This document shows, piece after piece, positions 510 through 13,562 of a stretch of 33,681 nucleotides of DNA. The stretch is from Bacteroidales bacterium (GTDB lineage: Bacteria; Bacteroidota; Bacteroidia; Bacteroidales; UBA932), in NCBI GenBank assembly GCA_017429765.1, contig JAFROJ010000004.1:1-33681 (forward strand). The letters are read 5' to 3'. Every line of letters begins with the position of its first letter. Position 1 is the stretch's first letter. The notes below the pieces were generated by a model. That model had not been told where the DNA came from. It searched no databases and was given only the letters and a program-made list of their open reading frames with translations. The translations under genes were made by a program, and so were the position numbers.

Positions 510-1175
510 TTATTTTTTAATTTTCTCGTCCAATTTCTCAATAAGGGTTGCAAAGTAAGTTATTTTTTCCGGATATCGCAACATTAACCGGGAATAAATC
601 TTCTTCGCCTCAGCGGGATAGCCCTGGCTGGCGTAGATCCAGGCGAGTGTCTCGGTGCAGAACCCGACCTCGGGATCCTCCCATTTCCTGCCGTCGCTCT
701 CGTCCGATCTCTCGACTTTATACTTGGAGAAATAGTTGTCCTCCTCAGTCTTGACCTCATCGTACTGCTCGGAGGAGAAGAAGTCCCCTCCGGCGACTTT
801 GACGACGCGGCGATAGGGGCGCGGCCCTTCGACCGGCTCAGGGACCGGAATATGGCCGGTTGGTGAGCTTGCCGGCCCTTCGACCGGCTCAGGGACCGGT
901 GAGGGCTGGGGGGCGATTAGGCGCTGGAGGAGGGACTCGACATCCTTGTCGGAATAGTCCTCCTTGCGGGTCGAGCGGGCGATGTCGGATATGATGGACC
1001 TGGAGGAGATGTACATGGCGGCCTCGGCGTAGCGTTCCTTGCCCCACTCGTTCCCGCCGACCTTGGACATCCTCTCGCAAAGCTCCCGACGGGCCGCGCC
1101 GAACCAGGGGTAGATGTTGATCACCCTGGTCAGCTCGTCCATTGTCAAGGACTTGAGATTGCCCGCTCCTTCCAT
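510..1175 (-). CDS. TPR-like protein of the lptE-secG operon, with in-frame palindromic repeats
   Basis: A soluble protein of 221 residues with no signal peptide. The N-terminal part (about 1-85) looks helical. The C-terminal part (about 165-221), with FCTETLAWIYASQGYPAEAKKIYSRL and then YPEKITYFATLIEKL, is a TPR-like repeat followed by a conserved tail that I recall from Bacteroidetes proteins encoded between lptE and secG. Function unknown; a scaffold role is inference. I chose ATG 1175 because it lies 7 nt after the lptE stop; the longer reading frame to 1223 would overlap lptE. Residues about 93-118 are encoded by one and a half copies of a palindromic repeat and give PVPEPVEG twice, 17 residues apart. 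This falls in the low-complexity linker between the two halves and is unlikely to belong to the ancestral fold. Confidence 0.75.
   Translation of the reverse strand: MEGAGNLKSLTMDELTRVINIYPWFGAARRELCERMSKVGGNEWGKERYAEAAMYISSRSIISDIARSTRKEDYSDKDVESLLQRLIAPQPSPVPEPVEGPASSPTGHIPVPEPVEGPRPYRRVVKVAGGDFFSSEQYDEVKTEEDNYFSKYKVERSDESDGRKWEDPEVGFCTETLAWIYASQGYPAEAKKIYSRLMLRYPEKITYFATLIEKLDEKIKK
823..899 (-). repeat. Palindromic repeat inside a coding sequence: one full and one half copy
   Basis: A full 44-bp copy occupies 856-899. A 26-bp half copy occupies 823-848 and repeats the left arm exactly at a 51-bp (17-codon) period. The arms are imperfect inverted repeats: CCGGT...TGAGC..GTCGA against its partner ending CTCACCAACCGG. 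Read on minus, the full copy encodes PVPEPVEGPASSPTG in frame. It matches the copy in uppP (13125-13168) at 39 of 44 bases, in the same reading frame. This points to a mobile or dispersed palindromic element that tolerates insertion in genes. Confidence 0.8.
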
Positions 1176-12710: not shown

Positions 12711-13562
12711 ATGGATTGGTTGCAGGCTCTTTTCCTCGGCTTGGTCCAGGGGCTCACAGAGTTCCTGCCGGTCAGCTCCAGCGGACATCTGCTTATAGCC
12801 AGGGAACTCCTCGGGGTTGACGCCGAGGGCTTCCTCGATTTCACCGTGACGGTCCATATGGCGACTGTCCTCAGCACCATCGTGGTGTTCTGGAAGCCTA
12901 TTCTCCGTCTTCTGTCCGGCTTTTTCAAGTTCAAGTACAACGACGAGACCGACTATGTCCTCAAGATTCTGGTGTCGATGATTCCGGTGTCGCTGGTGGG
13001 TCTTCTTCTCAAGGATAAGGTCGAGGCCCTTTTCGGCGACTCGCTGACCACTGTCGCGGTCTTCCTGGCAGTGACCGCCGCCCTGCTGTTCTTCTCGGAC
13101 ATGTTCGGGAAGCCGGTGGTTCGGCCGGTCCCTGAGCCAGTCGATGGTTCGACAAGCTCACCAACCGGAGGGCCTCGGAACGGTATCAAGTTCTGGCAGG
13201 CGCTCCTGGTCGGAGCCGGCCAGGCCTTGGCGGTGGCCCCCGGCCTGTCCCGCTCCGGGACCACGATCTCCGTGGGCTTGTGCGCCGGGGTGCGCCGGGA
13301 TGTCATGGCCCAGTTCTCTTTCCTGATGGTGCTCATCCCCATCATCGGCGAGCAGGCCCTGGATGTCCTCAAGGCCGTCACAGGCCATGCCGCCATGGGC
13401 GGCGGGATCAGTCCTGTCTGCCTGGCCGTGGGCTTCATCGCCGCGTTCGCGGCCGGCCTTCTCGCCTGCAAAGCCATGGTCGCCCTCGTCAGGAGGGCCA
13501 GGCTCAGCTGGTTCGCCCTCTATTGCCTCGCCGTGGCGGTGTTGATATTCATATTCGCCTGA
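12711..13562 (+). CDS. uppP: UppP, undecaprenyl-diphosphatase, with an inserted repeat
   Basis: Inner-membrane enzyme that removes one phosphate from undecaprenyl diphosphate, recycling the lipid carrier for peptidoglycan and O-antigen; it also gives bacitracin resistance. Both BacA motifs are present: GLVQGLTEFLPVSSSGHL (about 10-27) and PGLSRSGTTIS (about 175-185). The 283-residue protein has the expected multiple TMs. Residues about 139-153 (PVPEPVDGSTSSPTG) are encoded by a 44-bp palindromic repeat and sit in the loop between DMFGKP and FWQALLVGAGQAL, just before the second motif. The frame is kept and both motifs are intact, so the enzyme is probably active. It follows DUF3098 by 1 nt, and lpxH starts 1 nt after its stop. 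Confidence 0.93.
   Translation: MDWLQALFLGLVQGLTEFLPVSSSGHLLIARELLGVDAEGFLDFTVTVHMATVLSTIVVFWKPILRLLSGFFKFKYNDETDYVLKILVSMIPVSLVGLLLKDKVEALFGDSLTTVAVFLAVTAALLFFSDMFGKPVVRPVPEPVDGSTSSPTGGPRNGIKFWQALLVGAGQALAVAPGLSRSGTTISVGLCAGVRRDVMAQFSFLMVLIPIIGEQALDVLKAVTGHAAMGGGISPVCLAVGFIAAFAAGLLACKAMVALVRRARLSWFALYCLAVAVLIFIFA
13125..13168 (+). repeat. Palindromic repeat inserted in frame in uppP
   Basis: A 44-bp imperfect palindrome: left arm CCGGTCCCTGAGCCAGTCGA, a TGG centre, right arm ending CTCACCAACCGG. The arms pair at 15 of 20 aligned positions. It matches the copy at 856-899 at 39 of 44 bases and is read in the same frame, giving PVPEPVDGSTSSPTG. Confidence 0.82.

Follow-up and report, generated by a model that had tools for sequence, protein, structure and literature searches.

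Genes and element copies in the window

The window, i.e. the whole stretch of 33,681 nucleotides from a Bacteroidales genome that was analysed, contains two protein genes with a short palindromic insertion. The relevant features are the following:

510..1166, minus strand: TPR-like gene, host of the element
822..848, minus strand: 27 bp repeating the A arm exactly, displaced by 51 bp (17 codons) along the TPR-like gene
856..899, minus strand: 44-bp imperfect palindrome in frame with the TPR-like gene, built from an A arm and an inverted B arm that is decayed
873..899, minus strand: A arm belonging to the 44-bp copy; all 27 bp are the same as at 822-848
12711..13562, plus strand: uppP gene (Pfam BacA), with the element inside the Pfam domain
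13125..13168, plus strand: second 44-bp copy, composed of an A arm and an inverted B arm, in uppP

The minus strand of 856-899 reads CCGGTCCCTGAGCCGGTCGAAGGGCCGGCAAGCTCACCAACCGG, and the uppP copy (13125-13168, plus strand) reads CCGGTCCCTGAGCCAGTCGATGGTTCGACAAGCTCACCAACCGG. Identification of UppP is backed by Pfam BacA with an E-value of 2e-68. An imperfect palindrome in frame in the TPR-like gene and a match to uppP at 39 of 44 bases had been described in the initial annotation, and both are present; the two genes use one and the same frame of the element (PVPEPVEG / PVPEPVDG). The additional half copy is likewise exact and in frame at a period of 17 codons, and its length is 27 bp (822-848 and 873-899) instead of the 26 bp first given. 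Self-complementary positions amount to 26/44 in the TPR copy and 30/44 in the uppP copy (window mean 11.2, sd 4.3); among all 44-mers of the window, 53 reach the former value and five the latter. In the TPR copy the far arm has decayed and differs from the B arm at three positions; folded as a single strand, this copy does only modestly better than shuffled sequences (z -1.65), whereas the fold of the uppP copy is clear (z -4.0; 0/200 shuffles equal it).

A dispersed family of hairpin units

The element is a short hairpin-forming DNA repeat dispersed across the genome, and the copies in the window belong to a family of the repetitive extragenic palindrome (REP) type. In the assembly to which the window belongs (2.36 Mb, 75 contigs) the exact 17-mer CCTTCGACNRGCTCAGG occurs at 53 sites versus none in the reversed control, and the core TTCGACNNGCTCA at 89 versus three, so that the copies of the window are not the only ones. 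The unit analysis covers 83 of the 89 cores, located in the window and in 45 stretches fetched around cores and transposase genes. Six cores (C4, C29, C52, C55, C61, C67) were left out on account of two middle bases that look chance-like; at least one of them, C29, is a true unit since GGTCCCTGAGC overlaps it.

A unit is built as GGTC + CCTGAGC-NN-GTCGAAGG + GCC and forms a short hairpin. The consensus of the 83 units is CCGGTCCCTGAGC. The tag is GGTC (GGTT in the B units), the stem does not start with AT, and the paired core can be read as including a G.A/A.G step. A unit may stand alone or next to another one, inverted or in tandem; among the 18 pairs of adjacent units whose cores are exact, five have their tags out, eight have their tags in and five are tandem.

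The bases flanking the core covary: CC/GG is found in 53 units, GG/CC in 17, CG/CG in seven, GC/GC in three and other combinations in three (n=83). Watson-Crick pairs are formed at the middle stem position in 83/83, at the inner in 81/83 and at the outer in 74/83 units, compared with shuffled means of 52.6, 46.1 and 49.7, respectively, and with a maximum of 67 for the middle pair in 2000 shuffles. The arms of the stem covary, and the conserved entity is the hairpin and not the peptide. By folding energy (DNA energy model) a single arm cannot be told from shuffled sequences (z -0.59), and of five longer folds one is strong (the uppP copy mentioned above) and four are weak (z -1.4 to -2.0). The element thus has the size and copy number of REPs (imperfect palindromes of 20-40 bp with many copies per genome) and, as in these, a stem kept by compensatory changes; it departs from them in its location, with 43 coding and 16 probably coding units among 83.

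Residence inside genes

REP elements are usually called extragenic. Most copies of the REP-type family described here are situated in protein genes, many of them conserved, and five open frames are used. Each unit was classified by a codon model trained on 32 genes of the window, the TPR-like gene and uppP being excluded, with thresholds for the coding classes that were fixed once and applied alike to units and controls. Accordingly, 43 of the 83 units have a coding frame on both sides, 16 are probably coding and 24 are not. Shifted control positions in the same loci gave 301 coding, 102 probable and 39 non-coding cases (n=442). Coding or probable are therefore 59/83 units versus 403/442 controls (odds ratio 0.24, p 3e-6): the element is depleted from coding DNA, though most of its copies sit there. 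The earlier proposal of an element adapted to coding regions is not supported by these numbers, and the in-frame copies look like survivors, not targets.

Of the six frames of the consensus unit, one is closed by a single stop codon (TGA). The 59 coding or probable units make use of all the other five and encode peptides of the type PVPEPVEG (23), GPSTGSGTG (14), ALRQAQGP/VVRQAHQP (14), RSLSLSKG (5) and PFDRLRDR (3); the absence of the TGA frame among them is built into the test and is no evidence, as the sixth frame is uncountable by this method.

A Pfam scan of 40 out of 42 candidate ORFs (all except L040 and L078:8588) assigned a family at E 0.001 to 37 host ORFs, and in 36/40 the curated cut-off was exceeded. 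With gene names inferred from Pfam, the host families include IspF, UvrB, RelA/SpoT, FtsA, Mur ligases, DnaX, RadA, phosphoglucose isomerase, S-adenosylhomocysteine hydrolase, Sua5 and GH92. In 22/40 ORFs the element lies within a domain or separates two domains of its host protein (coordinates read by eye); in the remainder it lies towards an end or is not bracketed by domains. Dozens of natural insertions that are tolerated thus raise the question of where proteins accept extra residues.

Half copies and possible growth of units

GGTCCCTGAGC is present at 63 sites of the genome versus six in the control. Among 56 of these sites in fetched loci, 40 belong to full or nearly full units and 16 to half or decayed ones. 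Where half and full units are neighbours, the half copy is located 5' of the full one in 11 of 12 cases. The suggestion that the half copy in the TPR-like gene may show how copies grow is in line with this recurrence, which fits partial duplication. All 14 same-strand spacings of GGTCCCTGAGC up to 120 bp are multiples of three (18, 21, 30, 42, 45, 51); this rule may stem partly from the build of the unit, because some of the loci concerned are not coding. Tandem copies of the right half, GTCGAAGGG, were observed in eight cases in fetched loci, e.g. in the RelA/SpoT gene (L049:6393-6470), and suggest growth of units by slippage.

Sites with and without the element in related species

Comparison of orthologous loci had been proposed as a check, and occupied as well as empty sites were found. 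The TPR gene of genome G017 (77 % protein identity) is without the element, while that of G033 (73 % identity) contains a differently built copy in the same linker. Parsing by script of the TPR linkers at 8/14 loci, own included, further revealed a hairpin of the companion type described below in G096 (ATCTTGAGCGAAGCGAAAGAT) and, in G114, another repeat and possibly a decayed unit. In an alignment of uppP from 12 genomes only the own gene has the element; in G033 and G020 a different insert occupies the same linker.

Nine sites are comparable between the own genome and G033, the comparison including 20 of the 33 G033 sites, which are in or near fetched stretches, and omitting L154:2835, which falls between aligned blocks. 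Five sites are shared; they lie in the TPR gene, in dnaX and in genes for a Mur ligase, a RelA/SpoT protein and an FAD oxidase. In an rRNA dimethylase gene a pair of units in the own genome corresponds to a half unit only (GCTCAGGGACC) in G033. Three sites are species-specific: uppP has the element in the own genome only, and G033 alone has it at another FAD oxidase site and in a TonB-receptor gene, where the net difference is 45 bp. The units of dnaX have opposite orientations in the two species, so that a single tolerant linker has probably been hit more than once at some of the shared sites. In the Mur ligase gene 23/23 bases of the unit are identical, and the flanks differ. With a nucleotide identity of roughly 70-80 % between the own genome and G033, neither a target-site duplication, the mark of MITEs, nor a sharp boundary could be read. 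Presence and absence between species, together with the covarying stems and the five frames, bear out the original view of a dispersed hairpin DNA element and not of a converged peptide.

Distribution in the genus, the phylum and beyond

Within the genus the 17-mer was detected in 12/61 genomes; two are rich in it (53 and 33 copies), and six of the 12 have a single match. In a sample of the phylum CCTGAGCNNNNCGAAGG occurs in 64/198 genomes, compared with one match each in 14 genomes for the reversed control. GTDB contigs contain the exact 24-mer GGTCCCTGAGCYTGTCGAAGGGCC in at least 120 stretches, and among the 80 matches listed the hosts are Bacteroidales, Microbacterium, Plantibacter, Treponema, one Fibrobacter, one member of the Gemmatimonadota and others. 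The records of Microbacterium and Plantibacter include isolates. Those of Treponema and Fibrobacter are metagenome-assembled, and for this reason their 24-mers possibly derive from misbinned contigs. Three plasmid records have partial matches (two of Microbacterium, one of Roseomonas).

In these 80 listed loci, with units up to 200 bases from the end of a locus dropped, coding or probable are 42/64 units versus 179/202 controls in Bacteroidia, 54/95 versus 269/272 in Actinomycetota, 5/14 versus 40/48 in Treponema and 2/6 versus 14/14 in the others. Hence also in other taxa the units of the listed loci are often coding or probable, but less so than the controls. Given an exact 24-mer in records from several phyla, one may ask by what route such a short element passes from one to another. 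It might be that a hairpin with an invariant 24-bp core passes between phyla which share a habitat (rumen Bacteroidales, Treponema and Fibrobacter; also Actinomycetota) and generally makes new linkers in conserved proteins, its spread inside genes being due to a unit that is open in 5/6 frames; taken as a whole, this extended reading is doubtful.

Relationship to known repeat families

PMC3733652 describes REPs as mostly intergenic, distinguishes the GTAG and CGTC superfamilies and mentions REP copies entirely within ORFs. As described there, the CGTC superfamily resembles the element in several respects: short hairpin units occur as singletons and dimers, including heterodimers with different stems; copies lie inside conserved genes and in several phyla, Bacteroidetes among them; and a transposase gene is not flanked by the repeat, which here holds for three own genes. 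In contrast, the own tag is GGTC and not CGTC, TGTC or CCTC, AT is missing at the first stem positions, and 59/83 units are coding or probable (compared by description). A further mark of the CGTC superfamily is a predominance of head-to-head dimers, to be set beside the 18 neighbour pairs counted above. Among 21 units from stretches of four further genomes of the phylum, about half carry TGTC, the most frequent tag there. Since TGTC is also the tag of the companion repeat, kinship with the CGTC REPs is likely; given that its own tag differs, the element is filed as a variant of intragenic REP elements and not as a CGTC member.

A comparison with Rickettsia palindromic elements (RPEs) had been drawn at the outset and is supported. 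According to PMC2229807, RPEs are palindromic DNA in frame in genes of conserved proteins and apparently tolerated there, and RPE-4 and RPE-6 of Rickettsia conorii are given as CGTC REP repeats in the REP survey (Di Nocera 2013, PMC3733652). However, the RPEs of PMC2229807 have a length of 105-146 bp, whereas a unit of the element has about 24-28 bp, or 44 bp when paired, and the element occurs in several phyla and is not restricted to Rickettsia.

REPINs and GTAG REPs with a REP-associated tyrosine transposase (RAYT), as described in PMC3116915 and PMC6006769, have inverted doublets, compensatory stem changes and RAYT-like genes in the genome in common with the element. Unlike these, the element has no GTAG/GTGG tag, its transposase genes are unflanked, also in distinction from classical REPtrons, and it is not confined to extragenic space. 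For a subclass of tnpA-REP genes that is abundant in Cyanobacteria and Bacteroidetes, PMC6006769 reports REP insertions in frame within the genes. In the PMC papers searched, no mention was found of the core DNA of the element or of the encoded peptides.

RAYT-like genes

The own genome has three matches to PF01797 (C17:27703-28584, C56, C14), two of them over the cut-off. Against the NCBIfam model REP_Tyr_transpos the three proteins reach E-values of 2e-13, 5e-6 and 3e-6, all below the curated cut-off, and HUH-like motifs and a tyrosine are readable in their sequences. The element flanks none of the three genes: the closest exact core lies 3.0 kb from the C17 gene and more than 34 kb from the C56 gene, and no exact core exists anywhere on the 13-kb contig of C14. 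In three G033 loci with RAYT-like genes, about 3 to 6 kb separate the gene from the closest exact unit.

The clade of the C17 gene co-occurs with the element. At 200 bits, a threshold drawn after the scores were seen, it is present in 11/12 element-bearing versus 16/49 element-free genomes of the genus (p 2.6e-4), and at E 1e-30 in 12/12 versus 29/49 (p 0.006). Restricted to the 26 genomes that are at least 90 % complete, the numbers are 8/8 versus 6/18 (p 0.002) at 200 bits and 8/8 versus 12/18 (p 0.13) at E 1e-30. Any PF01797 match is found in 12/12 element-bearing versus 34/49 element-free genomes of the genus (p 0.03), and in the phylum in 20/20 element-rich genomes (all those with at least five matches, own genome excluded) versus 15/21 element-free ones (p 0.02), the latter hand-picked from the families of the former. 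All of these statistics ignore shared ancestry, and half of the element-bearing genomes of the genus (6/12) contribute a single 17-mer.

A tblastn search with five RAYT-like proteins against the 80 listed 24-mer loci yielded one match (L182), about 2.9 kb from the nearest 24-mer. In G335, G380 and G477, REP clusters spaced by about 1 kb resembled repeat-flanked RAYT genes; this reading was rejected, as a motif scan of the fetched stretches found no such gene there, and the PF01797 matches of G335 and G380 are located away from the clusters (G477 was not in the search).

Origin and spread of the element

The data are best explained, with a probability of roughly two in three, by a REP-type family whose DNA copies are inserted blind to frame, filtered by selection and enlarged by half units, and which may be moved by a RAYT-like enzyme. 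The data establish the dispersal, the covariation of the hairpin, the residence in frame in conserved genes, the use of all five open frames, the differences in occupancy between species and the half copies. Copies would be placed in the genome as DNA regardless of frame, and selection would then have purged most of the harmful ones. Survivors within genes would be those with a net length that is a multiple of three, a frame avoiding the TGA of the unit and a position in a tolerant loop or linker, and the inserts are probably neutral for the host proteins. Duplication of half units may add further growth. As to the mover, a RAYT-like HUH/Y1 transposase acting in trans on single-stranded hairpin DNA is our best single guess, at about even odds. 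The element also offers a case for asking if such elements can be moved by RAYT-like enzymes whose genes have no flanking repeats.

The same REP-type element might also spread without a dedicated transposase, by template switching, gene conversion or an unrelated hairpin-recognising nuclease. The unflanked RAYT genes of the own genome and the distances of about 3 to 6 kb in G033 would agree with such a mode, and CGTC repeats are reported not to be associated with transposase genes (PMC3733652); the exact 24-mer in Actinomycetota and Treponema moreover suggests a mechanism beyond one enzyme clade. Yet the RAYT-like clade co-occurs with the element in the genus, as does any Y1 transposase in the phylum sample, and we regard spread without a dedicated transposase as less likely.

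Far less probable is selection at the level of the peptide, i.e. PVPEPVEG as a useful proline-rich linker spread by duplication or convergence. That this is the commonest frame (23/59) and that the TPR and uppP copies are situated in variable linkers would be expected of such a peptide, but 36/59 coding or probable units encode unrelated peptides in four other frames, 24/83 units are not coding, and the arms covary as DNA. Similarly, a functional DNA word kept by selection at each site (protein-binding, chromosome-organising or an uptake signal) would account for the exact 24-mer in several phyla and for a Mur ligase unit unchanged at 23/23 bases between differing flanks. Such a word should hardly be missing from 49/61 genomes of a genus in which one member has 53 copies of the 17-mer, nor should three of nine sites be species-specific and one be full versus half; this explanation has next to no probability.

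Other repeats near the element

Several other repeats were noticed in the neighbourhood of the element. A companion REP-like repeat, TGTCATTCTGAGCGAAGCGAAGAATCT, is interleaved with it in the own genome at L069:2943-3010, L069:3303-3370 and L077:7086-7170, and copies of GGTCCCTGAGC are 45 bp apart where it interleaves. The tag of this companion (TGTC) fits the CGTC superfamily. The core TGAGCNNNGCGAA has 14 units in the fetched loci, not all of the TGTCATTCTGAGCGAAGCGAAGAATCT type. A third repeat-like insert (GCGACCATTTACCCG...GCGAAGCGCAG) is that of the uppP linkers of G033 and G020 (L111, L112), and a stretch related to it is found in the TPR linker of G114 (L135). Finally, a GC-rich repeat around ggggccgcgaagcggcgg, apparently intergenic, occurs at positions 1-60 of the window and at L061:4340-4392, L078:4310-4387 and L047:2846-2880.
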